Assembly (NCBI GenBank): GCA_963965975.1
Contig: OZ014421.1
Coordinates: forward strand, 5,941,001-6,005,000
Source of the DNA: Xestospongia bergquistia
Taxonomy: Eukaryota > Porifera > Demospongiae > Haplosclerida > Petrosiidae
Reading direction: 5' to 3'
Length of the DNA stretch: 64,000 nt
A program made the position numbers and the translations under genes. The notes beneath the pieces are model-generated. The model did no database searches and was not told where the DNA came from. It saw only the letters and a program-made list of their open reading frames with translations. Shown here piece after piece: positions 1 to 64,000 of the stretch (positions are counted from its first letter, which is position 1; every line of letters starts with the position of its first letter).

Positions 1-473
1 CTATTAGTGGTACTAGTTTAACTCCTTCAGCTGATGTAACTCCTACCGCTAACAATATACCAATTAATCTTGAGATAATTATAGTAGCCATTGTGATATT
101 TCTAATGCTCCTTGCTGTAGTGACCATTGTACTTCTTTGTTGGTTAATAAAACAATACAAGAAGAAACAAAGACATGATACTTATCATGTCTTACAGGAA
201 ACAGAGACAAACAAAAACAAACAAGCTACAGACATTGATGATATTGATCAGGTGTACACAGTTGTTATGAAAGACAAATGTCCTGAACTACCACCTACAT
301 ATCTCTTGTCAGAAGACACCGTTGATCACACTAAAAACACAAATCAACAAGAAGAATATCACATTTTAAACAATCCATTGTATGTAAAACAAGATGAAGT
401 CACTGAAGTATATTCTCATGCTCATCATATCAATGATGAAGCTAAAGAGCTAACTCATCAAATACCAGATTAG
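1..473 (+). CDS. Unit 0: 3' part of type A Ig receptor (exon 5 only, cut by window edge)
   Basis: The window opens inside exon 5 of a type A unit. The frame starting at base 3 is open through the end of the Thr/Ser-rich stalk, a membrane helix of about 24 hydrophobic residues (roughly bases 75-150), a basic stop-transfer run (KQYKKKQR) and a tail of about 105 residues. The tail carries YTVV, a PELPPTYLL proline patch, YHIL and NPLYVK. NPxY motifs are known PTB-domain and endocytosis signals; function here is inferred. The tail ends in the family's usual TAG, followed about 35 bases later by an AATAAA. The signal peptide, N-terminal domain and Ig exons must lie upstream of the window. The only oddity is HAHHIN where most units have LAHHIY. 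Confidence 0.8.
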   Translation, partial: ISGTSLTPSADVTPTANNIPINLEIIIVAIVIFLMLLAVVTIVLLCWLIKQYKKKQRHDTYHVLQETETNKNKQATDIDDIDQVYTVVMKDKCPELPPTYLLSEDTVDHTKNTNQQEEYHILNNPLYVKQDEVTEVYSHAHHINDEAKELTHQIPD

Positions 474-659
474 ATCTGATTGGATTTAACAAAAGTATAA
501 AACAAATAAAGTGATAACTATTTTTACATATGCTGAATTCATTTCTTTAAATTTGTTAATGTATTTTTAAAGGATGTGCCTATAGGTCTGGCTGAAAGTA
601 ATACATTGCTGTGTATGGTTAATAATTAGGGGGTGGGGATCAGTTTAATTGCAACAAAG

Positions 660-1189
660 TACAAAGTACAATATTGGTATCAATTAATACAATACAGAGT
701 ACACTGTCCATTGCTATAACTTCTGCCATTATACCTACAGCTAGTGAGGCCATAAGACTTGAAATTCTAATAGGAGCAGCTATAGCCATACTAGTTGTGA
801 TAATACTACTCCTTTTAATAGTCATCACACTTTTATTGATAATAATACATCAAAAGAAGAAACAAAAAAATGATACTTGGATTGAAGAAGAATCAGAACA
901 TGATGTTGCTACTATTAATGAAGACACAGTGTACTCCATTATCAATAGAGACAAAGATGTACCACCTGAAGTACCACCTCAATTATTTGATGATATTGAT
1001 GAATATGATAGTACTAGTGACTTGTACCAATTGAATGATCATTCATATGATTATGTTATAGCTAATAATCAAGTAGTGTTTGACATATTGGATAAACCTA
1101 GTAATAATGATAACTCTACAACTGTGTATTGTCTTCCTCATTATGAGTCTGTTAGTAATGTTATTGAACTATTATATGATCAAACTTAA
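660..1189 (+). CDS. Type B terminal-exon copy behind unit 0, open reading frame intact
   Basis: About 190 bases after the unit 0 stop there is a 5'-truncated copy of a type B exon 5. It encodes the last part of a Ser/Thr stalk, a long membrane helix (about 25 Ile/Leu/Val residues), a basic HQKKKQK stop-transfer and a long tail. The tail has VYSII, a PPEVPPQ proline patch and about seven further tyrosines. It is the only one of these downstream copies with neither the CCAT frameshift nor another break. There is no good acceptor, but an AG ending at 659 would join it in phase 1 to exon 4. It may be an alternative last exon or a relic that has not yet decayed. Confidence 0.45.
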
Positions 1190-1737
1190 GATATTAATCC
1201 TCAAATATCACAATATTATGATATTATTACTAACATGATTGAATCTCCTGTTACTTTGATAATACAGAAAGTAGACTATGATTGTTGTTAATTAAAATAG
1301 TGTGGTCTTTTCTTTTTAAGTTTTATATCTTTATGTTTACTTTATTATTAGATTAATAATAACAAATACAAATTTATTATCATTTTATCACTCAAAGTTA
1401 TAGACAAAGTTAAGTTAATATTGTTGATGATTATTAATACTATTCTTTAATAAAGGTCTAACTATTAAAAACTAAAATAATAAAATACTAATTAAAATAA
1501 TTCATAATTATTACTTCATGAACTTCATTAGTTCAATGTATATTTGATTATATTAACTTAAAATGTTATTTAGAACTTAACTAAAGAATTAACAAGTTGT
1601 ATTTTTATTAATTACTCATAAACAAACTAAACACCCACATCATGCATTGCTTGTATTTTTATTACAAAATAATATATAAATTACTATAGTAGTAAGTTCT
1701 CATACACTCGACTATATTTGTTTAATATCAAGTCAAG
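1190..1737 (+). promoter_or_regulatory. Intergenic region with class I promoter, upstream of unit 1
   Basis: This starts with 3' UTR of the type B exon, followed by AT-rich sequence with no gene. Near its right end lie a conserved block CCACATCATGCATT (1635-1648, starting 103 bases before the ATG) and a TATATAAA stretch (1673-1680). The same two blocks recur before most units, so I read this as the promoter. Class I promoters always precede the MLTVFTAVF signal-peptide exon. Confidence 0.55.
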
Positions 1738-3746
1738 ATGTTGACAGTCTTTACTGCTGTGTTCATACTATTTAGTAACACTGTGTTGTGTCATAGTAAG
1801 TAGATCAATATTTTCCTTGCCATAGTTCTGATATCATCTCTTGTACATGTAGATCCAGTTGAGTACAATATATTTTATTTTGTCTCTTTTGATGGTTCTA
1901 ACCTCACTAATACTAGTTCAGGATGTATAGTGATTGGATCTGGTGGTCGTTTGAGATGTTTAAATACTAATGGTAAACTAGTTGATGGAGACATTGGTCC
2001 AATGTACTCAATATCTGATAACCTGGGAGAATTCTTTGCTTTTAGTAGATACTCGGTAGATGGTATTGGAAGAATTACCTTTAACTTTCCTAATTCTACT
2101 AATGTATCAAGTGCAGTTATCTATTTCTTTAACTCACCTGATAACTCCATTGGACTACCTATGATCAGTCTTTCTGCTGTGAGTAGTCAACCTCTTAGCT
2201 ATGTCTTTGACAACAATGATGATCTCAGACAAAGCAACTCTCAACTAAGAAATGTCACTCTTAATATACAACAATTAACTACTGTATTTCAACTTGATTT
2301 TATCTTTAATACTAGTATAATTGACTGGTTATTAATAAGTGAAGTCAAGTTTTATAATAGTAAGTTAATATATAAACTATTGATATATCATTAATACATT
2401 ATCATATACTAGACACTCAAATATCTCCCCCAATGGATGCCATTGTCTTCCAGGGTGGTTCCTCACTAAATGTGACCTTAGGACCAGATAACCTTCAGTC
2501 TTCAGTCAATATCTCCTGTACAGTAGTCAATTATGGTTCCTTTGAGTGGCAATGGCAATATAATGAGAGTATCTTGGATCTTCCTGATCGTTCACAAATA
2601 TTAATAGGAGATGCTACAAGAACCAGTATACTAACTATTAATAAACTCAGATATAATGATACTGGAAATTATTCATGTATTGTAAGACATCTACAGAAAA
2701 CAGTAAACTACATAAGACTCATAAAATTAGAATTAACAGGTACTGATTATTAATAATATTAACTTTAATTATCACTAATTTTTAGCTACCATTACTGCTA
2801 TATCTAATAGCATGACCTCAGCTAATATTGGAGATAATGTCACTCTATCATGTGAAGTCTATGGATATCTACCACATAATATTACTATAATATGGAACTA
2901 TATTACTGGAGTGATTAATAATGGAGAACATTATAATATTACAACAAATACTGGATCATTAATAGCAATTGATTTCAATGGTAGTATTACCAATAGTATT
3001 GTCAGTAATCTTACAATATATAATGTAAATAGCAGTGATAATGGGATATATAGCTGTACAATATTAAGAACATTGCTACAAGCAACAATCATATTAAATG
3101 GTAAGTTTATTTATAGCTAAAATAACATTATTTTGTGTTTTTCTGCCCACATTTATGCAAATGTCACTGACACCTTTTCACAGTCATCAGTGTTACTACA
3201 TCTATTAGCACACTGTCAATTGGTACAACACCTACAAACATTAATACACCCACTACTGATGTAACTCCTATTACTTCTATTAGTGGTACTAGTTTAACTC
3301 CTTCAGCTGATGTAACTCCTACCGCTAACTATATACAAATTAATCTTGAGATAATTATAGTAGCCATTATGATATTTCTAATGCTCCTTGCTGTAGTGAC
3401 CATTGTACTTCTTTGTTGGTTAATAAAATTATACAAGAAGAAACAAAAACATGATACTTATGTCTTACAGGAAACAGAGACAAACAAAAACATACAAGCT
3501 GCAGACATTACTGATATTGATCAGGTGTACACAGTTGTTATGAAAGACAAAGCTCCTGAACTACCACCTACATATCTCTTGTCAGAAGACACCATTGATC
3601 ACACTAAAAACACAAATCAACAAGAAGAATATCACATATTAAACAATCCATTATATGTAAAACAAGATGAAGTCACTGAAGTATATTCTCTTGCTCATCA
3701 TATCTATGATGAAGCTAAAGAGCTAACTCATCAAATACCAGATTAG
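1738..3746 (+). CDS. Unit 1: type A two-Ig transmembrane receptor, complete
   Basis: Five exons: 1738-1795, 1853-2359, 2413-2739, 2786-3100 and 3184-3746, all introns phase 1 with GT-AG ends, giving 589 residues. Residues 1-19 are a hydrophobic signal peptide. Residues 20-188 are a beta-rich N-terminal domain ending DWLLISEVKFYN, faintly like the discoidin-like fold of DDR receptors. Ig1 (189-297) and Ig2 (298-402) each have the Cys pair, core Trp and DxGxYxC signature. The stalk is Thr/Ser/Pro-rich, the membrane helix lies near 458-482, and the tail of about 107 residues holds YTVV, PELPPTY, YHIL and NPLY. Many N-x-S/T sites support a cell-surface product. Exon 1 has lost nine bases before its donor compared with other class I units, but phase is kept. 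There is no type B copy behind this unit. Confidence 0.82.
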
Positions 3747-4227: not shown

Positions 4228-6238
4228 ATGTTAACTGCCTTTGCTGTGTTCATACTATTCAGTAATATTGTGTTGTCTCAAGTACAGATTGGTAAGTGAG
4301 GCTATCTTTATAATTCTATTACCTTACTCTGTATACAGATCCACATCAATACAACATATTTTATGCTGTCTCATTTGGTGGTTCTAACCTCACTAACACT
4401 AGTTCAGGATGTATAGTGATTAGATCAGGTGTTCGTTTGAGATGTTTAAATACTAATGGTAAACTAGTTGATGGAGACATTGGTCCAACGAACTCAATAT
4501 CTGATAACCTGGGAGAATTCTTTGCTTTTAGTAGATACTCAGTAGATGGTATTGGAAGAATTACCTTTAACTTTCAACCTGTTACTCCTGTATCAAGAGC
4601 AGTTATCTATTTCTTTAACTCACCTAATGATTCTATTGGACTACCTATGATTAGTCTTTATGGTGCAGGTAGTCAACCTCTCAGCTATGTCTTTGACAAC
4701 AATGATGATCTCAAACAAAGTGACTCTCAACTAAGAAATATCTCTCTCAATTTACAGCAATCAACTGATGTAGTTCAACTATATTTTATCTTCAATACTA
4801 GTATAATTGACTGGTTATTAGTAAGTGAAGTCAAGTTTTATAATAGTAAGTTAATATATAAACTATTGATATATCATTAATACATTATCATATACTAGAC
4901 ACTCCAATATCTCCCTCATTAAAAACCATTGTCTTCCAGGATGGTCTCTCACTAACTGTGATCATAGGACCAGACAACCTTCAGTCTTCAGTCAATATCT
5001 CCTGTACAGTAGTCAATGCTAGTTCCTTTGAGTGGCAGTGGCAATATAATGAGAATATGTTAGATCTTCCTGATTGTTCACAAATATTAATAGGAGATGC
5101 TACAAGAACCAGTATACTAACTATTAATAAACTCAGATATACTGATGCTGGGAATTATACTTGTATTGCAAAGTATTCACTAGCAACAGTGAAACGTACA
5201 AGACTCACAAACGTAGAATTAATGGGTAATGATTATTAATAATATTAAAGTTAATACCACTAATTCTTGTTTTAGTTAACATTATTGCTATACCTAACAA
5301 CATGACCTTAGCTAATATTGGACATAATGTCACTCTGTCATGTGAAGTCTATGGATATCTACCACCTAATATTACTATAATATGGAACTATATTACTGGA
5401 GTGATTAATAATGGAGAACATTATAAGATTACAACAAATACTGGATTATTAATGGCAATTGATTTCAATGGCAATACTACCAATAGTATTGTCAGTAATC
5501 TTGCAATATATAATGTAAATAGCAGTGATAATGGGACATATACTTGTATGATGTTAGGAACATTGCTACAAGCAACAATAAGTTTAAATGGTAAGTTTAT
5601 TTATAGCTAAAATAACATTATTTTGTGTTTTTTTCTGCCCACATTTATGTAAATGTCACTGACACCTTTTCATAGTCATTAGTGTTACTACATCCATTAG
5701 CATACTGTCAATTGGTACAACACCTACAAACATTAATACACCCACTACTGATGTAACTCCTATTACTTCTATTAGTGGTACTAGTTTAACTACTTCAGCT
5801 GATGTAACTCCTATCACTAACAATATACCAATTAATCTTGAGATAATTATAGTAGCCATTGTGATATTTCTAATGCTCCTTGCTGTAGTGACCATTGTAC
5901 TTCTTTGTTGTTTAATAAAACAATACAAAAAGAAACAAAGACATGATACTCATGTCTTACAGGAAACAGAGACAAACAAAAACAAACAAGCTGCAGACAT
6001 TGATGATATTGATCAGGTGTACACAGTTGTTATGAAAGACAAAGCTTCTGAACTACCACCTACATATCTCTTGTCAGAAGACACCGTTGATCACACTAAA
6101 AACACAAATCAACAAGAAGAATATCACATTTTAAACAATCCATTGTATGTAAAACAAGATGAAGTCACTGAAGTATATTCTCTTGCTCATCATATCTATG
6201 ATGAAGCTAAAGAGCTAACTAATCAAATACCAGATTAG
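4228..6238 (+). CDS. Unit 2: type A two-Ig transmembrane receptor, complete
   Basis: Exons 4228-4291, 4339-4845, 4899-5225, 5276-5590 and 5676-6238 (phase 1 throughout) give 591 residues. The signal peptide is the second type, MLTAFAVFILFSNIVLSQVQ. The N-terminal domain carries the variable patch QPVTPVSRAV. Ig1 ends in the class b form (DAGNYTCIAKYSLATV), and intron 3 is the matching GTAATG/TTTAG|TTAAC type. Ig2, stalk, membrane helix and NPLY tail are as in unit 1. No frameshift or stop is visible. It is expected to be a glycosylated single-pass surface receptor without its own enzyme domain; ligand unknown. Confidence 0.82.
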
Positions 6239-7611: not shown

Positions 7612-9612
7612 ATGTTGACTGCCTTTGCTGTGTTCATACTATTCAGTAATATTGTGTTGTCTCAAGTACAGATTGGTAAGTGAGGCTATGTTTATAATTC
7701 TATTACCTTACTCTGTACAGATCCACATGAATACGACATATTTTATGCTGTCTCCTTTGATGGTTCTAACCTCACTAACACTAGTTCAGGATGTATAGTG
7801 ATTGGATCAGGTGCTCGTTTGAGATGTTTAAATACTAATGGTAAACTAGTTGATGGAGACATTGGTCCAATGAACTCAATATCTGATAACCTGGGAGAAT
7901 TCTTTGCTTTTAGTAGATACTCAGTATATGGTATTGGAAGAATTACCTTTAACTTTCCTATTCCTACTTCTGATTCAAGTGCAGTTATCTATTTCTTTAA
8001 CTCACCTAATGACTCCATTGGACTACCTATGATCAGTCTTTATGGTGAGGGTAATCAACCTCTTATCTATGTCTTTGACAACAATGAAAATCTCAGACAA
8101 AATGACTCTCAACTGAGAAATGTCACTCTCAATATACAAAAATTAACTAGTATAGTTCGACTTGATTTTATCTTCAATACTAGTATAATTGACTGGTTAT
8201 TAATAAGTGAAGTCAAGTTTTATAATAGTAAGTTAATATATAAACTATTGATATATCGTTAATATATTACCATATACTAGACACTCCAATATATCCCTCA
8301 GTGGATGCCGTTGTCTTCCAGGGTGGTCCCTCACTAACTGTGACCTTAGGACCAGACAATATTCAGTCTTCAGTCAATATCTTCTGTACAGTAGTCAATA
8401 ATGGTTTCTTTGAGTGGCAATGGCAATATAATGAGAATGTGTTAGATTTTCCTGGTCGTTCACAAATATTAATAGGAGATGCTACAAGAACCAGTATACT
8501 AACTGTTAATAAACTCAGATATACTGATGCCGGAAATTATACTTGTATTGCAAAGCTTTCACTAGGAACAGCAAACCATACAAGAGTCACAGAATTAGAA
8601 TTAACAGGTAATGATTATTAATAATATTAACTTTAATTATCACTAATTTTTAGCTAACATTACTGCTATATCTAATAACATGACCTCAGTTACTATTGGA
8701 GATAATGTCACTCTATCATGTGAAGTCTATGGATATCTACCACCTAATGTTACTATAATATGGAACTATGATACTGGAGTGATTAATAATGGAGAACATT
8801 ATAAGATTACAACAAATACTGGATCATTAATAGCAATTGACTTCAATGGCAATACTACCAATAGTATTGTCAGTAATCTTACAATATATAATGTAAATAG
8901 CAGTGATAATGGGACATATACTTGTATGATATTAGGAACATTGCTACAAGCAACAATCAGTTTAAATGGTAAGTTTATTTATAGTTAAAATAACATTATT
9001 ATGTGTTTTTTATGCCCACATTTATGCAAATGTCACTGACACCTTTTCACAGTCATCAGTGTTACTACATCCATTAGCACACTGTCAATTGGTACAACAT
9101 CTAAAAACATTAATACACACAATATTGATGTAACTCCTATTACTTCTATTAGTGGTACTAGTTTAACTCCTTCAGCTGATGTAACTACTACCGCCAACAA
9201 TATACCAATTAATCTTGAGATAATTATAGTAGCCATTGTGATATTCCTAATGCTCCTTGCTATAGTGACCATTGTACTTCTTTGTTGGTTAATAAAACAA
9301 TACAAGAAGAAACAAAGACATGATACTCATGTCTTACAGAAAACAGAGACAAACAAAAACAAACAAGCTGCAGACATTACTGATATTGATCAGGTGTACA
9401 CAGTTGTTATGAAAGACAAAGTTCCTGAACTACCACCTACATATCTCTTGTCAGAAGACACCATTGATCACACTAAAAACACAAATCAACCAGAAGAATA
9501 TCACATTTTAAACAATCCATTGTCCAAACAAGAAGAAGTCACTGAAGTATATTCTCTTGCTCATCATATCTATGATGAAGCTAAAGAGCTAACTCATCAA
9601 ATACCAGATTAG
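7612..9612 (+). CDS. Unit 3: type A two-Ig receptor, complete, NPxY tyrosine missing
   Basis: Exons 7612-7675, 7721-8227, 8281-8607, 8654-8968 and 9053-9612 give 590 residues. Signal peptide, N-terminal domain (variable patch PIPTSDSSAV), Ig1 (class b, CIAKLSLGTANHT), Ig2, stalk and membrane helix are all intact. Intron 3 is mosaic: it starts with the class b donor GTAATG but ends like class a. In the tail NPLYVKQ is replaced by NPLSKQ, one residue shorter, removing the NPxY tyrosine while the other tyrosines stay. Units 14 and 15 share this change. Confidence 0.82.
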
Positions 9613-10977: not shown

Positions 10978-12126
10978 ATGTTGACTGCCTTTGCTGTGTT
11001 CATACTAGTCAGTAATATTGTGTTGTCTCAAGTACAGATTGGTAAGTGAGGCTATGTTTATAATTCTATTACCTTACTCTGTACAGATCCAGTTCAATAC
11101 AACATATTTTATGCTGTCTCCTTTAATGGTTCTAACCTCACTAATACTAGTTCAGGATGTATAGTGATTGGATCTGGTGGTCGTTTGAGATGTTTAAATG
11201 GTACTGGTAAACTAGTTGATAGAGACATTGGTCCAATGAACTCAATATCTGATAACCTGGGAAAATTCTTTGCTTTTAGTAGATACTCTGTAGATGGTAT
11301 TGGAAGAATTACCTTTAACTTTCTTCCTGCCACTCCTGTATCAAGAGCAGTTATCTATTTCTTTAACTCACCTAATGACTCTATTGGACTACCTATGATC
11401 AGTCTTTATTGGTAGGGTAATCAACCTCTTATCTATGTCTTTGACAACAATGTAAATCTCAGACAAAATGTATGTATAATTGACTGTATAATTGACTGGT
11501 TATTAATAAGTGAAGTCAAGTTTTATAATAGGTCTGGCTGCATTGCTGTGTATGGTTAATAATTAGGGGGTGGGGATCAGTTTAATATGCAACAAAGTAC
11601 AAAGTACAATATCGGTATCAATTAATACAATACAGAGTACACTGTCCATTGCTATAACTTCTGCCATTATACCTACAGCTAGTGAGGCCATAAGACTTGA
11701 AATTATAATAGGAACAACTATAGCCATACTAGTTGTGATAATACTACTCATTTTAATAGTCATCACACTTTTATTGATAATAATGCATCAAAAGAAGAAA
11801 CAAAAAATGATACTTGGATTGAAGAAGAATCAGAACATGATGTTGCTACTATTAATGAAGACACAGTGTACTCCATTATCAACAAAGATAAAGATGTACC
11901 ACCTGAAGTACGACATCAATTATTTGATGATATTGATGAATATGATAGTACTAGTGACTTGTACCAATTGAATGATCATTCATATAATTATGTTATAGCT
12001 AATAATCAAGTAGTGTTTGACATATTGGATAAACCTAGTAATAATGATAACTCTACAACTGTGTATTGTCTTCCTTATTATGACTCTGTTAGTAATGTTA
12101 TTGAACTATTATATGATCAAACTTAA
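10978..12126 (+). pseudogene. Unit 4: receptor pseudogene, exon 2 fused to a type B tail relic
   Basis: Exon 1 (10978-11041) and its donor are intact, and exon 2 starts normally at 11087. An extra T near 11410 shifts the frame into a TAG at 11413-11415. A deletion then removes the middle of exon 2, and around 11531 the end of exon 2 (TTTTATAATA) runs directly into the spacer that normally lies behind a type A gene. Ig1, Ig2 and the whole type A exon 5 are therefore gone. The type B relic (about 11590-12126) has lost one A in its AAACAAAAAA run and so is also out of frame, but it has no CCAT duplication. The short TATA/GG overlap suggests a microhomology-mediated deletion. Confidence 0.75.
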
Positions 12127-12675
12127 GATATTAATCCTCAAATATCACAATATTATGATATTATTACTAACATGATTGAATCTCCCGTTACTTTTGATAA
12201 TACAGAAAGAGACTATGACTTATCAATATTAATAAAATTGGTGTGTTTTTTTTATAAAGTTTCATATCTTTATTTTATTATTAGATGAATAACAAGTAGA
12301 AGTTAATATTATTACATGTGTCAAACTATAGATAAAGTTAAGTTAATATCGTTAATGATAATTAATACCATTCTCTATCGAAGGCCTATTTATCAAATAC
12401 TAAAATGATAAAATACAACGTGAAAGAAATCAAAATTTAATACTACATGAACTTCATTAATTTCAATGTACATTAATCACAGTATCTTAAAATTTTATTT
12501 TAGAACTTGATTACTTTACTGAAGAGTTGACAAATTGCTTGTTTATTTAATATCAAGACACACACTAACACCCACATCATCCATTACTTTTACTTTTCTT
12601 ACAATCATAAAATATAAACTAGCGCAGTACTAAGTTCTCATATACTCTACTATCTCTATATTATATGAGGTCAAG
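12127..12675 (+). promoter_or_regulatory. Type B 3' UTR and class III promoter of unit 5
   Basis: AT-rich noncoding sequence. This flank resembles those before units 16 and 22 (class III), with CCACATCATCCATT at 12572-12585, 104 bases before the ATG, then AAATATAAAC. It precedes an MLTVFTAVF exon although its last part resembles class II, so the promoter itself looks mosaic. Confidence 0.45.
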
Positions 12676-14929: not shown

Positions 14930-15524
14930 TTGAATCTCCCGTTACTTTTGATAATACAGAAAGTAGACTATGATTGTTGTTAATAAAAATTGGTGTGGTC
15001 TTTTCTTCTTTAAATTTTATATCTTTATGTTTACTTCATTATTCGTTAAACAACAAGAAGAAAGTTAATGTCGTTACATTTCTCATAGTTATAGATGCAG
15101 TTTTCAATTTAATACAACTAGTGATAATAAATATTATTCCTATGAGAAAATTCTAAAATATTAAAATACAAATCAAAAGAAATCAAACTTCCAATTGAAC
15201 TGCTTGCTCATTATCACTGATAAAAACTATAGATGCAGTTAAGTTAATATTGTCTAATTATCTAATAATAATATGATAAAAATACCAATTAAAATAATCA
15301 AATTTCAACACTGTACAAACTTCAATGTACATTTGATTATAGCAATGTAAAATTTATTTTAGAATTTGATTAGTTAACTGAAGAAGTGACAAATTGTAGT
15401 GTTTATTTAGTATTCATAAAGACACACTAAACTGTCACATCATCCATTACTTTATTTTAATTATAGCTGTAAAATATAAACTAGTGCAGTACTAAGCTCT
15501 CATATACTCTACTATCTCTATACA
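14930..15524 (+). promoter_or_regulatory. Class II promoter now separated from unit 6 by transposons
   Basis: Type B 3' UTR, then a class II flank with the conserved block as TCACATCATCCATT (15435-15448) and AAATATAAAC near 15471-15481. In other units an ATG follows about 100 bases after the block. Here the flank stops within CTCTATA at 15522, where the hAT element begins; its continuation is found at 22180. Confidence 0.6.
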
Positions 15525-15840: not shown

Positions 15841-16097
15841 ATAATGTGGGTAAATCCGCCAGTTAAAGTTCAAGTCTTAGTTCAACAATGGTATATTTCA
15901 ACAACAAGAACTCTTTGAATATATATACAGTTAGGAAATTTTACACACAATCAAAGAATGTTCTAGATATATTGATCACATAATTAACACATTAACACTT
16001 ATAATTATGATCACATAATTAACACATTAACACTTATGGTTATGCACACACAAATGAGTCAACTTAAGAGATACAGTAATATAGTACACACACTACA
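15841..16097 (-). repeat. 3' LTR of the gypsy element (left copy)
   Basis: About 257 bases, matching 19687-19933 with scattered differences and an internal duplication of the ATAATTAACACATTAACACT phrase. On the minus strand it begins TGTAGTGTG and ends near CCACATTAT. Confidence 0.85.
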
Positions 16098-50635: not shown

Positions 50636-52514
50636 ATGTTGACTGCCTTTGCTGTGTTCATACTATTCAGTAATATTGTGTTGTCTCAAGTACAGATTGG
50701 TAAGTGAGGCTATGTTTATAATTCTATTACCTTACTCTGTACAGATTCAGTTCAACACAACATATTTTATGCTGTCTCTTTTGATGGTTCTAACCTCACT
50801 AACACTAGTTCAGGATGTATAGTGATTGGATCAGGTGTTTGTTTGAGATGTTTAAATACTAATGGTAAACTAGTTGATGGAGACATTGGTCCAATGAACT
50901 CAATATCTGATAACCTGGGAGAATTCTTTGCTTTTAGTAGATACTCGGTAGATGGTATTGGAAGAATTACCTTTAACTTTCAAACTGTTACTCCTGTATC
51001 AAGAGCAGTTATCTATTTCTTTAACTCACCTAATAACTCCATTGGACTACCTATAATCAGTCTTATGGGTAGTCAACCTCTTAGCTATGTCTTTGACAAC
51101 AATAAAAATCTCAGACAAAATGACTCTCAACTGAGAAATGTCACTCTCAATATACAACAGTTAACTAGTACAGTTCAACTTGATTTTATCTTTAATACTA
51201 GTATAATTGACTGGTTATTAATAAGTGAAGTCAAGTTTTATAATGGTAAGTTAATATATGAACTATTGATATATCATTATTACATTATCATATACTAGGC
51301 AATCCAATATCTCCTTCAATGGACCCTATTGTCTTCCAGGATGGTCCCTCACTAACTATGACCTTAGGACCAGACAACCTTCAGTCTTCAATCAATCTCT
51401 CCTGTACAGTAGTCAGTGATGGTTCCTTTGAGTGGCAATGGCAATATAATGAGAATATGTTAGATCTTCCTGATTGTTCACAAATATTAATAGGAGATGC
51501 TACAAGAACCAGTATACTAACTATTAATAAACTCAGATATACTGATGCTGGGAATTATACTTGTAATGCAAAGCATTCACTAGGAACAGTCAACAAAACA
51601 AGAGTCATAATATTAGAATTAACGGGTAATGATTATTAATAATATTAAAATTAGTAACACTAATTCTTGTTTTAGTTTACATTATTGCTATACCTAACAA
51701 CATGACCTCAGCTAATATCAGACATAATGTCACTCTGTCATGTGAAGTCTATGGATATCTACCACCTAATATTACTATAATATGGAACTATATTACTGGA
51801 GTGATTAATAATAAAGAGCATTATAAGATTACAACAAATAGTGGATCATTAATAGCAATTGATTTCAATGGCAATACTACCAATAGTATTGTCAGTAATC
51901 TTACAATATATAATGTAAATAGCAGTGATAATGGGACGTATACTTGTATGATATCAGGAACATTGCTACAAGCAACAATCAGTTTAAATGGTAAGTTTAT
52001 TTATAGCTAAAATAACATTATCATGTGTTTTTTTCTGCCCACAATTATGCAAATGTCACTGACACAAGTCATCAGTGTTACTACATCCATTAGCACACTG
52101 TCAATTGGTACAACACCTACAAACATTAATACACCCACTAGTGATGTAACTCCTATTAGTTCTATTAGTGGTACTAGTTTAACTCCTTCAACTGATGTAA
52201 CTCCTCCCACTAACAATATACCAATTAATCTTGAGATAATTATAGTATCCATTGTGATATTCCTAATGCTCCTTGTTATAGTGACCTTTGTACTTCTTTG
52301 TTGTTTAATAAAACAATACAAGAAGAAACAAAGACATGATACTTATGTCTTACAGGAAACAGAGACAAACAAAAACAAACAAGCTGGAGATATTACTGAT
52401 ATTGATCAGGTGTACACAGTTGTTATGAAAGACAAAGTTCCTGAACTACCACCTACATATCTCTTGTCAGAAGACACCATTGATCACACATCTATGATGA
52501 AGCTCAAGGTATAA
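50636..52514 (+). CDS. Unit 17: type A two-Ig receptor with truncated tail
   Basis: Exons 50636-50699, 50745-51245, 51299-51625, 51676-51990 and 52069-52514 give 550 residues. Signal peptide, N-terminal domain (patch QTVTPVSRAV, two residues shorter after SLMGSQ), Ig1 (class b, CNAKHSLGTVNKT), Ig2 and stalk are intact. The acceptor of exon 5 has lost the usual CTTTTCAC pyrimidines and reads CACTGACACAAG|TC, so splicing may be weak. A deletion in the tail after DTIDHT shifts the frame to SMMKLKV, removing YHIL, NPLY and the later tyrosines while keeping YTVV and PPTYLL. Confidence 0.7.
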
Positions 52515-52926
52515 CTCATCAAATACCAGATTGGATCTGATTGGATCAAACAACAGTATAAAACAAATAAAATTATAACTATTTTTACATATGCTGAGTT
52601 CATCATTTTTTTAAATTTGTTAATGTATTTTTAAAGGATGTGCCTATAGGTCTGGCTGAAAGTAATACATTGCTGTGTATGGTTAATAATTAGGGGGTGG
52701 GGATCAGTTTAATACGCAACAAAGTACAAATTTCCAGCTGGACTTTACACTGTCTATTTTAAATCTGCTTAATTAGAATTTTTGATTTTGTTTTTATTAG
52801 TATATTAATTATTACATCATGTTATTCAATTGTTGATAGTTTTTGTGTAAGAATGTGTTTTGTGATCAATTTAAAGTATAGATATCCTCTTGGAACTCTA
52901 GTATTATATTTAATGCTGTCCCAGTA
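52515..52926 (+). other. 3' flank of unit 17 joined to truncated unit 18
   Basis: Poly(A) signal region, common spacer and T-rich stretch ending in the shared junction. No promoter block, no gene. Confidence 0.5.
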
Positions 52927-52933
52927 GACAACA

Positions 52934-54261
52934 TTGGAAGAATTATGTTCATTTTGTAGTTCAAGAGCAGTTATCTCTTTCTTTAACTCACCTAATGACT
53001 CCATTGGACTACCTATGATCAGTCTTTATGGTGAGGGTAGTCAACCTCTTAGCAATGTCTTTGACAACAATGATGATCTGAGACAAAATGATTCTCAACT
53101 GAGAAATGTCACTCTCAATATACAACAATTAACTAGTACAGTTCAACCTATGCTTATGTTGGAGATAATGTTGTTCTGACCTGTCACTTTGAGCTACATG
53201 GCTGTATAACTCATTACACTTCTGTACAATGGAATCATACAAGTAGTGAATAATGAAAAAAATATGACATTGCAACTAACCACACTAACTCAACTTTTAT
53301 CATCAGTCAATTGACAATTAGGAATGTCAGCAACAGTGATATGGTGAATTACATATGTGTGCTTCTTAGAATATATTTAGGAAAGAAAATTTCCTTGAAC
53401 AGTAAGTTATTATAGTTATTCTGTTTATATGCAAATGTTTATAAATAAACTATTTTACTATAGCATCTTTTCCCACATTATCATTGATGTCAATTAACAT
53501 TATTCTTCTAACAGTCCTCAGTATCACAACATATACTAATACAAGACACACAACTATCGTACTGTCAACTGTATCAAGTATAACAATACCTACTAATACA
53601 TTTTCACTTATTACCATATTTACAAATATACAGCCAATATCTAGTATGAAGTCAATGAGTACACTGTCTATTGATCCAGTATTCATTAGTAGGCCATCAA
53701 TTGGTACAACATCTTCAATAATGTCATTTAACAAAGCTTCTACTAATACAATATTGGTATCAATTAATACAGTACAGAGTACATTGTCCATTGCTATAAC
53801 TTCTGCCATTATGCCTACAGCTAGTGAGGCCATAAGACTTGACATTATAATAGGAACAACTATAGCCATACTAGTTGTAATCAGTTTAATAGTCATTACA
53901 CTTTTATTGATAATAATGCATCAAAAGAAGAAACAAAAAAATGATACTTGGATTGAAGAAGAATCAGAACATGATGTTGCTACTATATGAAGATACAGTG
54001 TACTCCATCCATTATCAACAGAGACAAAATGTACCACCTGAAGTACCACCTCAATTATTTGATGATATTGATGAACATGATAGTACTAGTGCCTTGTACC
54101 AATTGAATGATCATTCATATGATTATGTTATAGCTAATAATAAAGTAGTGTTTAACATATTAGATAAACCTAGTAATAATGATAACTCTACAACTGTGTA
54201 TTGTCTTCCTCATTATGACTCTGTTAGTAATGTTATTGAACTATTATATGATCGAACTTAA
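52934..54261 (+). pseudogene. Unit 18: 5'-truncated exon 2 / type B Ig2 / type B tail chimera
   Basis: Half exon 2 (52934 to about 53146) fuses to the type B Ig2 (from about 53147) without Ig1; the first frame ends at 53179 (TGA). Ig2 has further changes, and its donor is at 53402. The type B exon 5 has its acceptor at 53514 and a good stalk and helix (with a small in-frame deletion in the helix, VVISLIVITL). A deletion near 53985 then gives TGA at 53988-53990. The CCAT duplication is also present; the distal tail continues in another frame to 54261. Not functional as it stands. Confidence 0.72.
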
Positions 54262-54811
54262 GATATTAATCCTCAAATATCACAATATTATGATATTATT
54301 ACTAACATGATTGAATCTCCTGTTACTTTTGATAATACAGAAAGTAGACTATGATTGTTGTTAATAAAAATAGTGTGGTCTTTTCTTTTTTAAGTTTTAT
54401 ATCTTTATGTTTACTTTATTATTAGATTAATAATAACAAATACAAATTTATTATCATTTTATCACTCAAAGTTATAGACAAAGTTAAGTTAATATTGTTG
54501 ATGATTATTAATACTATTCTTTAATAAAGGTCTAACAATTAAAAACTAAAATAATAAAATACCAATTTAAATAATACATAATTATTACTTCATGAACTTC
54601 ATTAATTCAATATATATTTGATTATATTAACTTAAAATGTTATTTAGAACTTAACTAAAGAATTAACAAGTTGTATTTTTATTAATTACTCATAAACAAA
54701 CTAAACACCCACATCATGCATTGCTTGTATTTTTATTACAAAATAATATATAAATTACTATAGTAGTAAGTTCTCATACACTCGACTATATTTGTTTTAT
54801 ATCAAGTCAAG
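54262..54811 (+). promoter_or_regulatory. Type B 3' UTR and class I promoter of unit 19
   Basis: Noncoding. CCACATCATGCATT at 54709-54722, 103 bases before the ATG, then a TATATAAA stretch. Confidence 0.55.
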
Positions 54812-56824
54812 ATGTTGACAGTCTTTACTGCTGTGTTCATACTATTTAGTAACACTGTGTTGTGTCAAAATCAAATAAGTAAGTAGATTAATAATTTTCC
54901 TTGCCATAGTTCTGATATCATCTCTTGTTCATGTAGATTTGACTCAATACAACATACTTAATGCTGTCTCCTTTGATGGTTCTAACCTCACTAATACTAG
55001 TTCAGGATGTATAGTGATTGGATCTGGTGGTCATTTGAGATGTTTAAATACTAATGGTAAACTAGTTGATGGAGACATTGGTCCAATGTACTCAATATCT
55101 GATAACCTGGGAGAATTCTTTGCTTTTAGTAGATACTCAGTAGATGGTATTGGAAGAATTACCTTTAACTTTCAAACTGTTACTCCTGTATCAAGAGCAG
55201 TTATCTATTTCTTTAACTCACCTAATGACTCCATTGGACTACCTATGATCAGTCTTTATGGTGTGGGTAATCAACCTCTTAACTACACCTTTGACAACAA
55301 TGATGATCTGAGACAAAGTGACTCTCAACTGAGAAATGTCACTCTCAATATACAACAATTAACTAGTATAGTTCGACTTGATTTTATCTTCAATACTAGT
55401 ATAATTGACTGGTTATTAATAAGTGAAGTCAAGTTTTATAATAGTAAGTTAATATATAAACTATTGATATACCATTAATACATTATCATATACTAGACAC
55501 TCCAATATCTCCCTCATTGGACACCATTGTCTTCCAGGATAGTCCCCCAGTAAATGTGACCTTAGGACCAGACAACCTTCAGTCTTCAGTCAATCTCTCC
55601 TGTACAGTAGTCAATGCTGGTTCTTTTGAGTGGCAATGGCAATATAATGAGAATGTGTTAGATCTTCCTGATCGTTCACAAATATTAATAGGAGATGCTA
55701 CAAGAACCAGTATACTAACTATTAATAAACTCAGATATACTGATACTGGAAATTATTCATGTTTTGTAAGAGATAGAAGATTGAACGATACAAGACTCAT
55801 AAAATTAGAATTAACAGGTACTGATTATTAATAATATTAACTTTAATTATCACTAATGTTTTAGCTACCATTACTGCTATATCTAATAGCATTACCTCAG
55901 CTAATATTGGACATAATGTCATTCTGTCATGTGAAGTCTATGGATATCTACCACCTAATATTACTATAATATGGAACTATATTACTGGAGTGATTAATGG
56001 AGAACATTATAAGATTACAACAAATACTGGATCATTAATAGCAATTGACTTCAATAGCAATACTACCAATAGTATTGTCAGTAATCTTACAATATATAAT
56101 GTAAAAAGCAGTGATAATGGGACATATACTTGTATGATATTAAGAACATTGCTACAAGCAACAATCAGTTTAAATGGTAAGTTTATTTATAGCTAAAATA
56201 ACATTATTATGTGTTTTTTTTTGCCCACATTTATGCAAATGTCACTGACACCTTTTCACAGTCATCAGTGTTACTACATCTATTAGCACACTGTCAATTG
56301 GTACAACACCTACAAACATTAATACATCCACTAGTGATGTAACTCCTATTACTTCTACTAGTGGTACTAGTTTAACTCCTTCAGCTGATGTAATTCCTAC
56401 CACTAACAATATACTAATTAATCTTGAGATAATTATAGTAGCCATTGTGATATTTCTAATGCTCCTTGCTATAGTGACCATTGTACTTCTTTGTTGTTTA
56501 ATAAAACAATATAAGAAGAAACAAAGACATGATACTCATGTCTTACAGGAAACAGAGACAAACAAAAACAAACAAGCTGGAGATATTAATGATATTGATC
56601 AGGTGTACACAGTTGTTATGAAAGACAAAGCTCCTGAACTACCACCTACATATCTCTTGTCAGAAGACACCATTGTTCACACTAAAAACACAAATCAACA
56701 AGAAGAATATCACATTTTAAACAATCCATTGTATGTAAAACAAGATGAAGTCACTGAAGTATATTCTCTTGCTCATCATATCTATGATGAATCTAAAGAG
56801 CTAACTCATCAAATACCAGATTAG
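54812..56824 (+). CDS. Unit 19: type A two-Ig receptor, complete
   Basis: Exons 54812-54878, 54937-55443, 55497-55817, 55865-56176 and 56262-56824 give 589 residues. Exon 2 patch QTVTPVSRAV with NYTFDNN in place of SYVFDNN. Ig1 is nearly identical to that of unit 8, including the short FG loop (CFVRDRRLND). Ig2 lacks one Asn, as in units 8 and 20. Stalk, membrane helix and NPLY tail are intact. From Ig2 to beyond the stop it is almost the same as unit 20, while exons 2 and 3 differ. That pattern fits a recent duplication or gene conversion of the 3' half. Confidence 0.83.
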
Positions 56825-58073: not shown

Positions 58074-60094
58074 ATGTTGACAGTCTTTACTGCTGTGTTC
58101 ATACTATTTAGTAACACTGTGTTGTGTCAAAATCAAATAAGTAAGCAGATCAATAATTTTCCTCATCATAATTCTGATATCATCTCTTGTTCATGTAGAT
58201 TTGACTCAATACAACATACTTAATGCTGTCTCTTTTGATGGTTCTAACCTCACTAATACTAGTTCAGGATGTATAGTGATTGGATCTGGTGATCATTTGA
58301 GATGTTTAAATACTAATGGTAAACTAGTTGATGGAGACATTGGTCCAATGAACTCAATATCTGGTAACCTAGGAGAATTCTTTGCTTTTAGTAGACACTC
58401 AGTACATGGTATTGGAAGAATTACCTTTAACTTTCAACCTGCTACTCCAGTGTCAAGAGCAGTTATCTATTTCTTTAACTCACCTAATGACTCCATTGGA
58501 CTACCTATGATCAGTCTTTATGGTGTGGGTAGTCAACCTCTTAGCTATGTCTTTGACAACAATGATGATCTCAGACAAAGTGACTCTCAACTGAGAAATG
58601 TCACTCTCAATATACAACAATTAACTAGTACAGTTCAACTTGATTTTATCTTCAATACTAGTATAATTGACTGGTTATTAATAAGTGAAGTCAACTTTTA
58701 TAATGGTAAGTTAATATATAAACTATTGATATATCATTAACTCATTATCATATAGTAGACACTCCAATATCTCCTTCATTTGACCCCATTGTCTTCCAGG
58801 GTGATCCCTCGCTAACTGTGACCTTAGGACCAGACAACATTCAGTCTTCAGTCAATCTCTCCTGTACAGTAGTCAATGATGGTTCCTTTGAATGGGAATG
58901 GCAATATAATGAGAATATGTTAGATCTTCCTGATCGTTCACAAATATTAATAGGAGATGCTACAAGAACCAGTATACTAACTATTAATAAACTCAGATAT
59001 ACTGATGCTGGAAATTATACTTGTATTGCAAAACTTTCACTAGAAACAGCAAACCATACAAAAGTCGCAGAATTAGAATTAATGGGTAATGATTATTAAT
59101 AATATTAAAATTAGTAACACTAATTCTTGTTTTAGTTAACATTATTGCTATACCTAACAACATTGTATCAGTTACTATTGGAGATATTGTCACTCTATCA
59201 TGTGAAGTCTATGGATATCTACCACCTAATATTACTATAATATGGAACTATAATACTGGAGTGATTAATGGAGAACGATATAATATTGCAACAAATACTG
59301 GATCATTAATAGCAATTGACTTCAATAGCAATACTACCAATAGTATTGTCAGTAATCTTACAATATATAATGTAAATAGCAGTGATAATGGGACATATAC
59401 TTGTATGATATTAAGAACATTGCTACAAGCAACAATCAGTTTAAATGGTAAGTTTATTTATAGCTAAAATAACATTATTATGTGTTTTTTTTGCCCACAT
59501 TTATGCAAATGTCACTGACACCTTTTCACAGTCATCAGTGTTACTACATCTATTAGCACACTGTCAATTGGTACAACACCTACAAACATTAATACATCCA
59601 CTAGTGATGTAACTCCTATTACTTCTATTAGTGGTACTAGTTTAACTCCTTCAGCTGATGTAACTCCTACCACTAACAATATACTAATTAATCTTGAGAT
59701 AATTATAGTAGCCATTGTGATATTTCTAATGCTCCTTGCTATAGTGACCATTGTACTTCTTTGTTGTTTAATAAAACAATACAAGAAGAAACAAAGACAT
59801 GATACTCATGTCTTACAGGAAACAGAGACAAACAAAAACAAACAAGCTGGAGATATTAATGATATTGATCAGGTGTACACAGTTGTTATGAAAGACAAAG
59901 CTCCTGAACTACCACCTACATATCTCTTGTCAGAAGACACCATTGTTCACACTAAAAACACAAATCAACAAGAAGAATATCACATTTTAAACAATCCATT
60001 GTATGTAAAACAAGATGAAGTCACTGAAGTATATTCTCTTGCTCATCATATCTATGATGAAGCTAAAGAGCTAACTCATCAAATACCAGATTAG
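58074..60094 (+). CDS. Unit 20: type A two-Ig receptor, complete
   Basis: Exons 58074-58140, 58199-58705, 58759-59085, 59136-59447 and 59532-60094 give 591 residues. Exon 2 patch QPATPVSRAV; the terminal strand is altered to EVNFYN. Ig1 is class b (CIAKLSLETANHT), close to unit 3, and its core WQW is WEW. Ig2 is open although NNM reads NNI. Stalk, helix and NPLY tail are almost identical to unit 19. No stops or frameshifts. Confidence 0.83.
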
Positions 60095-60480
60095 ATCTGA
60101 TTGGATCAAACAAAAGTATAAAACAAATAAAGTGATAACTATTTTTACATATGCTGAATTCATTTCTTTAAATTTGTTAATGTATTTTTAAAGGATGTGC
60201 CTATAGGTCTGGCTGCATTGCTGTGTATGGTTAATAATTAGGGGGTGGGGATCAGTTTAATACGCAACAAAGTACAAATTTCCAGCTGGACTTATATGCA
60301 CTGTCTATTTTAAATCTGCTTAATTAGATTTTTTGTCTTTGTTTTTATTAGTATATTAATTATTACATCATATTATTCAATTGTTGATACTTTTGTGTAA
60401 GAATGTGTTTTGTAATCAATTTAAACTACAGATATCCTCTTGGAATTCTAGTATTATATTTAATGCTGTCCCAGTAGACA
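60095..60480 (+). other. 3' flank of unit 20 joined to truncated unit 21
   Basis: Poly(A) signal, spacer, T-rich stretch and shared junction; nothing else seen. Confidence 0.5.
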
Positions 60481-60483
60481 ACA

Positions 60484-61276
60484 TTGGAAGAATTATGTTC
60501 ATTTTGTAGTTCAAGAGCAGTTATCTCTTTCTTTAACTCACCTAATGACTCCATTGGACTACCTATGATCAGTCTTTATGGTATGGGTAGTCAACCTCTT
60601 AGCTATGTCTTTGACAACAATGATGATCTTAGACAAAATGATTCTCAACTGAGAAATGTCACTCTCAACATACAACAATTAACTAGTACAGTTCAACCTA
60701 TGCTTATGTTGGAGATAATGTTGTTCTGACCTGTCACTTTGAGCTACATGGCTGAACTCATTACACTTCTGTACAATGGAATCATACAAGTAGTGAATAA
60801 TGGAAAAAATATGACATTGCAACTAACCACACTAACTCAACTTTTTATCATCAGTCAATTGACAATTAGGAATGTCAGCAACAGTGATTTGGTGAATTAC
60901 ATATGTGTGCTTCTTAGAATATATTTAAAGAAAATTTCCTTGAACAGTAAGTTATTATTGTTATTCTGTTTATATCCAAATGTTTATAAATAAACTATTT
61001 ACTGTAGCATCTTTTCCCACATTATCATTGATGTCAATTAACATTATTCTTCTAACAGTCCTCAGTATCACAACATCTACTAATACAAAACATACACCTA
61101 ATGTACTATCAACTATATCAAGTATAACATTACCTACTAATACATTATCAATCATTACAACATCTACTAATATAAAGCCAACATCTAGTATGAAGTCAAT
61201 GGGTACACTGTCTATTGATCCAGTATTCACTAGTAGGCCAACAACACAAATCAACAAGAAGAATATCACATTATAA
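60484..61276 (+). pseudogene. Unit 21: truncated chimera of exon 2, type B Ig2 and type B stalk
   Basis: Half exon 2 (to about 60697) is fused to type B Ig2, with TGA at 60727-60729; the rest of Ig2 is in other frames up to the donor at 60947. The type B exon 5 begins after the acceptor at 61058 and encodes the stalk. Near 61240 it jumps into a piece of type A tail (ACAAATCAACAAGAAGAATATCACATT), stopping at 61276, and then into type A 3' UTR. No membrane helix remains in this part. Confidence 0.72.
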
Positions 61277-61464
61277 ACAATCCATTGTATGTAAAACAAG
61301 ATGAAGTCACAAAAGTATAAAACAAATAAAGTGATAACTATTTTTACATATGCTGAATCCATTTTTTAAATTTGTTAATGTATTTTTAAAGGATGTGCCT
61401 ATAGGTCTGGCTCAAAGTAATACATTGCTATGGGGATCAGTTTAATACGCAACAAAATACTAAG

Positions 61465-61981
61465 TACAATATTGGTATCAATACAGAGTACACTGTCCAT
61501 TGCTATAACTTCTGCCATTATACCTACAGCTAGTGAGGCCATAAGACTTGAAATAGTAATAGGAACAACTATAGCCATACTAGTTGTGATAATACTACTC
61601 ATTTTAATAGTCATCACACTTTTATTGATAATAATGCATCAAAAGAAGAAACAAAAAATGATACTTGGATTGAAGAAGAATCAGAACATGATGTTGCCAC
61701 TATTAATGAAGATACAGTGTACTCCATCCATTATCAATAGAGACAAAGATGTACCACCTGAAGTACCACCTCAATTATTTGATGATATTGATGAACATGA
61801 TAGTACTAGTGACTTGTACCAATTGAATGATCATTCATATGATTATGTTATAGCTAATAATCAAGTAGTGTTTGACATATTGGATAAACCTAGTAATAAT
61901 GATAACTCTACAACTGTGTATTGTCTTCCTCATTATGACTCTGTTAGTAATGTTATTGAACTATTATATGATCAAACTTAA
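61465..61981 (+). pseudogene. Type B terminal-exon relic behind unit 21, doubly frameshifted but open
   Basis: Like the relic at 56990-57526: one A missing in the AAACAAAAAA run, then the CCAT duplication, so the frame 61430-61981 stays open for 183 codons. It also lacks nine bases in the stalk (ATACAGAGTACACTG without ATTAATACA). Confidence 0.55.
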
Positions 61982-62526
61982 GATATTAATCCTCAAATAT
62001 CACAATATTATGATATTATTACTAACATGATTGAATCTCCTGTTACTTTTGATAATACAGAAAGAGACTATGACTTATCAATATTAATAAAATTGGTGTG
62101 TTTTTTTATAAAGTTTAATATCTTTATTTTATTATTAGATGAATAACAAATAGAAGTTAATGTCATTACATGTGTCAAACTATAGATAAAGTTAAGTTAA
62201 TATCGTTAATGATAATTAATACCATTCTCTATCGAAGGCCTATTTATCAAATACTAAAATAATAAAATACAACGTGAAAGAAATCAAAATTTAATACTAC
62301 ATGAACTTCTTTAATTTCAATGTACATTAATCACAGTAAATTAAAATTTTATTTTAGAACTTGATTACTTTACTGAAGAGTTGACAAATTGCTTGTTTAT
62401 TTAATATCAACACACACACTAACACCCACATCATCCATTACTTTTACTTTTCTACAATCATAAAATATAAATTGCTACAGTAGTAAGTTCATATACTCTA
62501 CTATCTCTATATTATATGAGGTCAAG
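61982..62526 (+). promoter_or_regulatory. Type B 3' UTR and class III promoter of unit 22
   Basis: Noncoding, close to the flanks of units 5 and 16. CCACATCATCCATT at 62426-62439, 101 bases before the ATG; the end is of the class I kind (AATTGCTACAGTAGTAAGTTC). Confidence 0.5.
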
Positions 62527-64000
62527 ATGTTGACAGTCTTTACTGCTGTGTTCATACTATTTAGTAAAACTGTGTTGTGTCAAAATCAAATAAGTAAACA
62601 GATCAATAATTTTCCTCATCATAGTTCTGATATCATCTCTTGTAGATCCAGTTCAATACAACATATTTTATGCTGTCTCCTTTGATGGTTCTAACCTCAC
62701 TAACACTGTTCATTTGAAATGTTTAAATGGTACTGGTAAACTAGTTGATGGAGATATTGGTCCAATGAACTCAATATCTGGTAACCTGGAATAATTCTTT
62801 GCTTTTAGTAGACACTCAGTACATGGTATTGGAAGAATTACCTTTATCTTTAAACCTGTTACTCCTGTATCAAAAGCAGTTATCTATTTCTTTAACTCAC
62901 CTTATTATCTCCATTGGATTACCTATGTTCAGTCTTTATGGTATGGGTAGTCAACCTCTTAACTACACCTTTGACAACAATGATAATCTCAGACAAAGTG
63001 ACTCTCGACTGAGAAATGTCACTCTCAATATACAAGAATTAACTACTGTAGTTCAACTTGATTTTATCTTCAATACTAGTATAATTGACTGGTTATTAAT
63101 AAGTGAAGTAAAGTTTTATAATGGTAAGTTAATATATAAACTATTGCATGATATATCATTAATACATTATCATATACTAGACACTCCAAAACCTCTCTTA
63201 ATTGACATAATTGTCTTCCAGGGTCGTCCCTCACTAACTATGACCTTAGGACCAGACAACCTGCAGTCTTTAGTCATTCTCTTCTGTACAGTAATCAATA
63301 CTAGTTCCTTTGAGTAGCAGTGGCAATATAATGAGAATGTGTTAGATCTTCCTGGTCGTTCACAAATATTAATAGGAGATGCTACAAGAACCAGTATACT
63401 AACTATTAATAAACTCAGATATACTGATACTGGAAATTATTCATGTATTGTAAGACATGGAACATTGAACGATACAAGATTCATAAAATTAGAATTAACA
63501 GGTACTGATTATTAATAATATTAACTTTAATTATCACTAATTTTTTAGCTAACATTACTGCTATATCTAATAGCATGACCTCAGCTGATAATGGACATAA
63601 TGTCACTCTATCATGTGAAGTCTATGGATATCTACCACCTAATATTACTATAATATGGAACTATAATACTGGAGTGATTAATAATGGAGAACATTATAAG
63701 ATTACAACAAATACTGGATCATTAATGGCAAATGACTACAATGGCAATACCACTAATAGTATTGTCAGTAATCTTACAATATATAATGTAAATAGCAGTG
63801 GCAATGGAACACATATGTGTATGATATTAGAAACATCACTACAAACAACAATTAGTCTATACAGTAAGTTTATTTATAGTTAAAATAACATTATTATGTG
63901 TTTTTATGCCCACATTTATGCAAATGTCACTGACACTTTTTCATAGTCATCAGTGTTACTATATCCGTTACAACATCTAAAAACATTAATACACCCACTA
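62527..64000 (+). pseudogene. Unit 22: receptor pseudogene, cut by window end
   Basis: Exon 1 62527-62593 (donor GTAAAC in place of GTAAGT), exon 2 62646-63123, exon 3 63181-63501, exon 4 63549-63863, exon 5 from 63947. Exon 2 lacks the SSGC segment and has a TAA where LGEF should be (near 62790), plus an insertion near 62905. Exon 3 has TAG in place of the core Trp (FEWQW to FE*QW, 63316-63318). Exon 4 is open, but its DNGTY signature reads GNGTH. The stalk continues past the window edge. Confidence 0.75.

Follow-up and report, generated by a model that had tools for sequence, protein, structure and literature searches.

The window analysed here is a 64,000-nucleotide (nt) stretch of the genome of the sponge Xestospongia bergquistia (positions 5941001-6005000 of contig OZ014421.1, called C11 below). 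The assembly comprises 146.46 Mb in 21 contigs. The window is occupied by a tandem array of genes for modular surface receptors. We added 100 kb on each side of it, so that 264 kb were analysed. Copies were found by tblastn and iterated nhmmer with seeds from one unit, unit 54812, which yielded 64 exon clusters across the 264 kb. Units are named by their start, in window coordinates.

Two types of gene are present. The A-type gene has five exons, encoding a signal peptide (SP, 58-67 nt), exon 2 (E2, 501-507 nt), two immunoglobulin (Ig) domains (Ig1, 315-330 nt; Ig2, 312-315 nt) and the transmembrane (TM) helix and tail. The introns are about 45-86 nt long, with 45-58 nt for A-type intron 1. 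The complete protein contains, in order, a signal peptide, a putative DS-like jelly-roll domain, two Ig domains, a serine/threonine-rich stalk, a TM helix and a tyrosine-bearing tail, in line with the modular surface receptors described in an earlier note on this DNA. Ig1 and Ig2 are above the Pfam Ig cut-offs in the two units scanned. The B-type gene is distinguished by its signal peptide, by a diverged Ig2 (Ig2') and by its tail (TM2).

All units in the window are arranged head to tail on the + strand. By our own grouping of the exon clusters there are 23 of them: 18 are of the A type, one of these being cut off by the left edge, and five are B-type units or remnants. Ten gene models within the window are complete and open (nine A-type, one B-type), and the remainder are partial or broken. 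Seven B-type tails are orphans, and the B copies other than 30707-32704 are tails or remnants between A units. The ancestral repeat was likely one A-type plus one B-type gene. The features of the window are as follows.

1..470, +: 3' part (TM exon) of an A-type unit whose start, at -1531, precedes the window; complete open reading frame, kinase-less
666..1288, +: orphan B-type tail (TM2); likewise 6408-7049, 9799-10420, 35631-35934, 43516-44143, 46798-47412 and 56999-57608
1738..3746, +: A-type gene, complete, kinase-less; exons 1738-1795, 1853-2359, 2413-2739, 2786-3100, 3184-3746
4228..6238, +: A-type gene, complete, kinase-less; exons 4228-4291, 4339-4845, 4899-5225, 5276-5590, 5676-6238
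7612..9612, +: A-type gene, complete, kinase-less, without the NPxY tyrosine; exons 7612-7675, 7721-8227, 8281-8607, 8654-8968, 9053-9612
10978..12208, +: truncated unit in which a B-type tail comes after SP and partial E2; Ig exons not found
12676..14980, +: A-type unit, broken by a stop in E2 and by frameshifts in both Ig exons; a piece of B-type tail follows
15840..19933, -: long terminal repeat (LTR) retrotransposon that separates units 12676 and 22200 and carries fragments of reverse transcriptase, RNase H and integrase; it is bounded by direct repeats (15840-16097, 19686-19933)
22200..25229, +: A-type gene, complete, whose last exon encodes a tyrosine kinase with NFG in place of DFG; exons 22200-22263, 22309-22812, 22866-23192, 23243-23557, 23641-25229
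25566..27054, +: B-type remnant (partial E2, Ig2', TM2)
27504..29516, +: A-type gene, complete, kinase-less; exons 27504-27570, 27628-28134, 28188-28508, 28556-28867, 28954-29516
29859..30204, +: B-type remnant (partial E2, Ig2')
30707..32704, +: B-type gene, complete open reading frame, 592 amino acids; exons 30707-30776, 30826-31323, 31377-31700, 31757-32053, 32115-32704 (the last acceptor is our choice between two that stay open)
33476..35445, +: A-type gene, complete, kinase-less, with a shorter stalk; exons 33476-33542, 33601-34107, 34161-34487, 34535-34849, 34934-35445
36482..38186, +: truncated, broken unit in which SP and partial E2 are joined to the juxtamembrane part and a kinase (NFG, VAVK lysine changed, internal stop)
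38531..41281, +: unit lacking SP and the 5' portion of E2; Ig1, Ig2 and TM plus kinase open (533 amino acid frame 39680-41281); NFG
41649..43332, +: unit lacking SP and the 5' portion of E2; Ig1, Ig2 and a kinase-less TM exon open
44595..46618, +: A-type unit, broken by a frameshift in Ig1
47879..49996, +: A-type unit, broken; 106 bp tandem duplication in E2 (48182-48392), stops in the TM exon
50636..52514, +: A-type gene, complete, short tail in which only two of six tyrosine motifs are present; exons 50636-50699, 50745-51245, 51299-51625, 51676-51990, 52069-52514
52881..54361, +: B-type remnant, tail frame broken
54812..56824, +: A-type gene, complete, kinase-less, the seed unit; exons 54812-54878, 54937-55443, 55497-55817, 55865-56176, 56262-56824
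58074..60094, +: A-type gene, complete, kinase-less; exons 58074-58140, 58199-58705, 58756-59085, 59136-59447, 59532-60094
60429..62063, +: B-type remnant, in pieces
62527..64000, +: A-type unit, broken, continuing beyond the right edge (to about 64410)

The earlier note had described about 22 five-exon units in tandem. The tandem array and the number are confirmed, with only the ten units noted above complete with open frames. The kinase in the last exon of three units, the B-type gene, the widespread breakage and the retrotransposon had been missed.

The array is longer than the window and spans about -25.6 kb to +122 kb; minus-strand members are found only outside the window. At its ends (-25.6 to -24.4 kb and +121.2 to +122.5 kb) the array has diverged members that resemble each other and are oppositely oriented, and Ig1 is 39.0% identical to the seed in both. 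Across the genome E2 has 49 matches, 47 on C11 and two on C1. The C1 pair (C1:1342001-1350000 and C1:1353001-1361000) contains E2, Ig1, Ig2 and TM, and its E2 is about 83% identical. No kinase match was found in the 8 kb examined for each of these two copies. The first copy has a stop in Ig2 and a second Ig2-like stretch at its positions 7416-7643.

In units 22200 and 38531 the TM exon runs into a protein kinase (PF07714, 3.1e-76 and 1.1e-77). The kinase is intronless, and unit 36482 carries a broken one. The unit 22200 kinase exon, scanned as 23643-25226, is closest to DDR2 and DDR1 among PDB kinases. These fill the top 11 rows (218.9-226.4 bits), ahead of an EGFR-labelled chain, 9p9u (209.5 bits in two stretches), and TrkC (193.6 bits); the assignment is one of similarity, without a tree, for the one kinase compared. 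A genome-wide kinase search, in which 135 of 455 candidates were scored, listed 32 places at E<=1e-20. Among the places listed, the 14 with at least 50% identity are all on C11:5918084-6074280, and the next-best matches, on C14 and C5, are 41-43% identical. A run of ten tyrosine kinase matches, 36-42% identical to the window kinase, is located at C6:1621389-1696795.

The 264 kb contain 14 kinase loci, a split locus at 96.8-97.7 kb being counted once. All three in the window have NFG, and all 11 outside have DFG. The DFG kinases occur towards both ends of the array. One of them, at 96.8 kb, is broken, and another belongs to unit 89362, in which all five exons are complete. Loss of the DFG aspartate normally abolishes catalysis. 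The window kinases, which lack it, are therefore predicted to be pseudokinases. Among the nine complete A genes of the window, all except 22200 are kinase-less (units 1738, 4228, 7612, 27504, 33476, 50636, 54812 and 58074). The most diverged members on both sides, with 49-52% kinase identity, carry kinases. Because these outer members keep the kinase, its loss in the interior of the array is the simpler direction of change, as judged without a tree.

E2 may provide a second link to the DDRs. It matches PF21114 (DDR1-2_DS-like) in 11 of 11 aligned members at E<=1, the best at 5.8e-5; in the one member with bits shown, the score is 19.4 against a cut-off of 27, for residues 125-166. The AlphaFold model of E2 is poor (pLDDT 55). 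With this low-confidence model, Foldseek placed the DDR1 DS-like domain first (E 9.9e-4, TM-score 0.46), the sole match at E<=0.001. VIA-align indicated no more than membership of the jelly-roll class: CBM, MAM and Eph domains were tied, and the top 50 contained no DDR chain. The E2 profile gave six matches among PDB sequences, the best at E 0.11 and none to a DDR chain. A genome-wide PF21114 search listed nothing, and it is uninformative because it missed window proteins that individually match the family. Taken together, the kinase and E2 make a relation of these receptors to the DDRs likely, not proven.

The DS-like similarity and the DDR-like kinase would also suit ordinary matrix or cell-adhesion receptors, that is, collagen or glycan receptors of the DDR kind multiplied for dosage or tissue-specific expression and without a role in recognition. 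However, the Pfam scans of the exons, E2 included, gave no F5/8C collagen-binding domain. No extra coding sequence fits between the signal peptide and E2, because A-type intron 1 is only 45-58 nt long. In addition, the ectodomain is most variable in an Ig loop described below. We consider this explanation quite unlikely.

The exon boundaries were placed by picking splice sites within 12 nt of the position that the seed unit predicts, on motif score less a small distance penalty and with phase ignored, and were then read against the open frame. For hits starting in the window, 123 of 128 boundaries are in phase 1 (59 of 64 acceptors and 64 of 64 donors). The five others are all in frameshifted units, two in 12676, one in 44595 and two in 62527. 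One site among the 123, at 53660 in a B-type tail, scores poorly. The phase 1 rule proposed earlier for every boundary thus holds, with exceptions confined to frameshifted copies. Since four introns have been copied many times, the 128 boundaries are not independent, and the real evidence is that of four introns. Introns all in phase 1 are usual for Ig and other extracellular modules.

Recombination was analysed at 138 two-state sites in 12 units in which the four large exons are open; three of these units extend beyond the window or lie outside it altogether. Incompatibility between sites within 100 nt of each other is 0.372, compared to 0.515 after permutation (0 of 1000 permutations). The units are mosaics, which is the mark of recombination. 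Individual pairs illustrate this. Units 27504 and 54812 are 99.7% identical in Ig1 and 5.8% different in E2, and units 54812 and 58074 are 99.3% identical in TM and 11.9% different in Ig1.

The mixing of units by recombination that the earlier note had suggested is supported by these data. The note had further envisaged an exon-shuffling factory, in which phase 1 introns allow whole exons to be swapped by recombination or by splicing between neighbours. The introns and the symmetric exons would permit this, and two signal-peptide types are combined with several tail types. The exon distance matrices are uncorrelated in four of six comparisons (E2-TM, -0.06; Ig1-TM, -0.07; Ig2-TM, 0.03; E2-Ig2, 0.00), with positive correlations for E2-Ig1 (0.40, 3 of 1000) and Ig1-Ig2 (0.31, 14 of 1000). 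Ig1 and TM are also more coherent inside (conflict 0.385 and 0.232) than with other exons (0.45-0.62), and at 200-300 nt conflict is slightly higher across introns than within exons (0.554 vs 0.486). However, at 60-120 nt the order is reversed (0.392 across introns vs 0.510 within exons), and E2 and Ig2 conflict strongly within themselves (0.535 and 0.56). Over all pairs 60-300 nt apart, incompatibility across introns exceeds that within exons by 0.017 (bootstrap -0.078 to 0.110). At matched distance, the breakpoints are not concentrated at introns, which favors gene conversion or unequal crossing-over over exon shuffling. A special role of the phase 1 introns in the mixing is not borne out, and we regard a shuffling factory as very unlikely.

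Among the four exons, variation is highest in the FG loop near the end of Ig1, between the second cysteine and the last strand, with a mean amino-acid difference of 0.49 over 12 columns. Exons with a stop or frameshift were left out of the analysis of nonsynonymous to synonymous substitution (dN/dS). The pooled ratios are 0.96 for E2 (13 units), 1.21 for Ig1 (19), 0.97 for Ig2 (22) and 1.10 for TM (19). In disjoint nearest pairs they are 0.84, 1.20, 1.34 and 1.38, respectively, and none differs from 1 (p 0.15-0.43). Neither the pooled nor the disjoint-pair dN/dS gives a significant signal of diversifying selection. Within the TM exon, the corresponding ratio of proportions (pN/pS) is 1.79 for the stalk and 0.84 for the cytoplasmic part. 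Introns 2 and 4 differ between units by 0.028 and 0.051, below the adjacent exons. They are a weak neutral standard because they are short and carry splice signals.

For tyrosine motifs in the tails, we examined 19 open A-unit TM exons in the 264 kb, each with an acceptor and at least 100 codons, some of them from units broken elsewhere. VYxVV is found in all 19, PPxY and EVYS in 17 each and NPxY in 14, and the tail is short in two. These motifs are possible docking sites, which would become phosphorylated.

A dN/dS near 1 would fit a decaying birth-and-death family, with a few working kinases, an interior of young tandem copies drifting to pseudogenes, mosaicism as a by-product of similarity and no repertoire. 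The extent of damage fits this too: breakage or truncation affects eight of the 18 A-type units in the window, four of the five B-type units are remnants, and the window kinases are NFG in three of three. On the other hand, the frames are open in 12 of the 19 five-exon units in the 264 kb, compared to about 23% under neutral substitution (binomial 2e-4, or 0.035 at a 40% neutral chance). The excess is weaker, 12 of 21 (7.7e-4; 0.085 at 40%), when units -3882 and 94521 are added, which have five exons, one of them cut short. The denominator was counted by hand, the test ignores indels and gene conversion, and units 22200 and 89362 are counted as intact, having no stop within 900 nt since the frame continues into the kinase. 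Neutral decay is also not expected to leave VYxVV in every open tail, or to focus variation in the Ig1 FG loop while it stays low across much of E2. We consider decay alone unlikely.

The explanation we favor, with a probability of roughly 0.6, is a cluster of DDR-related receptor kinase genes that has been amplified in tandem, with mosaic ectodomains, a mostly kinase-less interior and many decaying copies. Receptor tyrosine kinase genes related to the DDRs would have been amplified, and the kinase then probably lost in interior copies while outer copies kept DFG. Gene conversion and unequal crossing-over would re-sort short tracts, creating mosaic ectodomains that vary most in the Ig1 FG loop, and many copies would decay in parallel. 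The kinase-less surface receptors may bind ligands (self, neighbour or microbe), and may signal through active kinases with which they pair and which phosphorylate their tails. The internal coherence of Ig1 and TM and the conflict across introns at 200-300 nt weigh against this explanation, and the dN/dS near 1, the broken units and the NFG kinases would also suit decay.

A further step would be to regard the locus as a recognition repertoire, comprising dozens of mosaic DS-like/Ig ectodomains, mostly kinase-less, with a CDR3-like Ig1 FG loop, which pair with or compete for the few active kinases of the same cluster. We put this forward tentatively, as possible rather than probable. The locus is an unproven candidate for self/non-self recognition. 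To our knowledge, the genes behind sponge graft rejection are not settled. One cluster with kinase-bearing and kinase-less mosaic Ig receptors is a concrete locus in which polymorphism and linkage to fusion or rejection can be followed. If the favored explanation is true, the cluster would illustrate how receptors of a kinase family give up the kinase and turn into a repertoire of variable ectodomains. If the locus is indeed a recognition repertoire, an early-branching animal would have built an allorecognition or immune system from tyrosine kinase receptors.

Other features are found in the window and elsewhere in the genome. The retrotransposon at 15840-19933 has a higher GC content and two flanking repeats of about 250 bp, and a similar rise in GC is seen beyond the window, at 80-85 kb. 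Ig matches occur in dense runs at C7:1.04-1.35 Mb, C2:0.25-0.40 Mb, C2:7.27-7.57 Mb and C2:10.96-11.46 Mb. Some matches in the C7 run are equal in score and spaced by 1.8 kb. In one example from a C2 run, inspected by eye, Ig and FN3-like stretches are found with a tyrosine-rich tail. Runs of exon matches to papain-type cysteine proteases are located at C9:1502757-1523415 and C3:911398-1064351. A silicatein-type motif pattern gave no match, and the best PDB match in a Bcl-2 comparison was not diagnostic of a sponge.

In titles and the first parts of abstracts in the open-licence literature, no array of this composition was found. Individual elements have precedents. Receptors of the sponge Geodia cydonium reportedly have two Ig domains, which are polymorphic, and kinase-less relatives known as sponge adhesion molecules. 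Two reports describe a Geodia cydonium receptor tyrosine kinase with an Ig-like ectodomain and introns only outside the kinase domain (PMC5793068, PMC12018476). With that receptor in print, the phrase 'undescribed system' in the earlier note is too strong. The genes at 22200-25229 (complete) and 38531-41281 (without its 5' end) are similar to it in their Ig domains, TM helix and intronless kinase. Unlike the Geodia cydonium kinase as described there, the genes here form a large tandem array and have a DS-like N-terminus, a DDR-like kinase, NFG copies and the B-type tail. For a sponge transcriptome, another report lists putative cytokine receptors, nearly 200 in number, that have tyrosine kinase, Ig and FN3 domains (PMC8242945).

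The array resembles DDR1 and DDR2 in its best kinase match, its DS-like similarity and the juxtamembrane NPxY, a motif that has a role in the DDR1 juxtamembrane tail. In contrast to DDR1 and DDR2, no F5/8C domain is seen and two Ig domains are present instead, the kinase is encoded by a single exon, and the genes are in a tandem array and mostly kinase-less. DDR orthologues have been reported from sponges (PMC6485061).

Arrays that mix signalling and signal-deficient receptors, with gene conversion and pseudogenes, are found in vertebrate KIR/LILR and plant RLK/RLP. The make-up of the array here is similar, with other domains in other lineages, and the comparison is one of analogy only. For the Alr family of Hydractinia, polymorphism and a role in fusion are established, and we know of no kinase ancestry or DS-like domain in it. 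A report on the Hydractinia allorecognition complex gives 41 genes for this family (PMC11999971). On that description, the two loci are alike in holding many Ig-type receptor genes in one genomic complex. Unlike Alr, the sponge array, known from the genes of one genome alone, combines its Ig domains with a DDR-like kinase and a DS-like domain.

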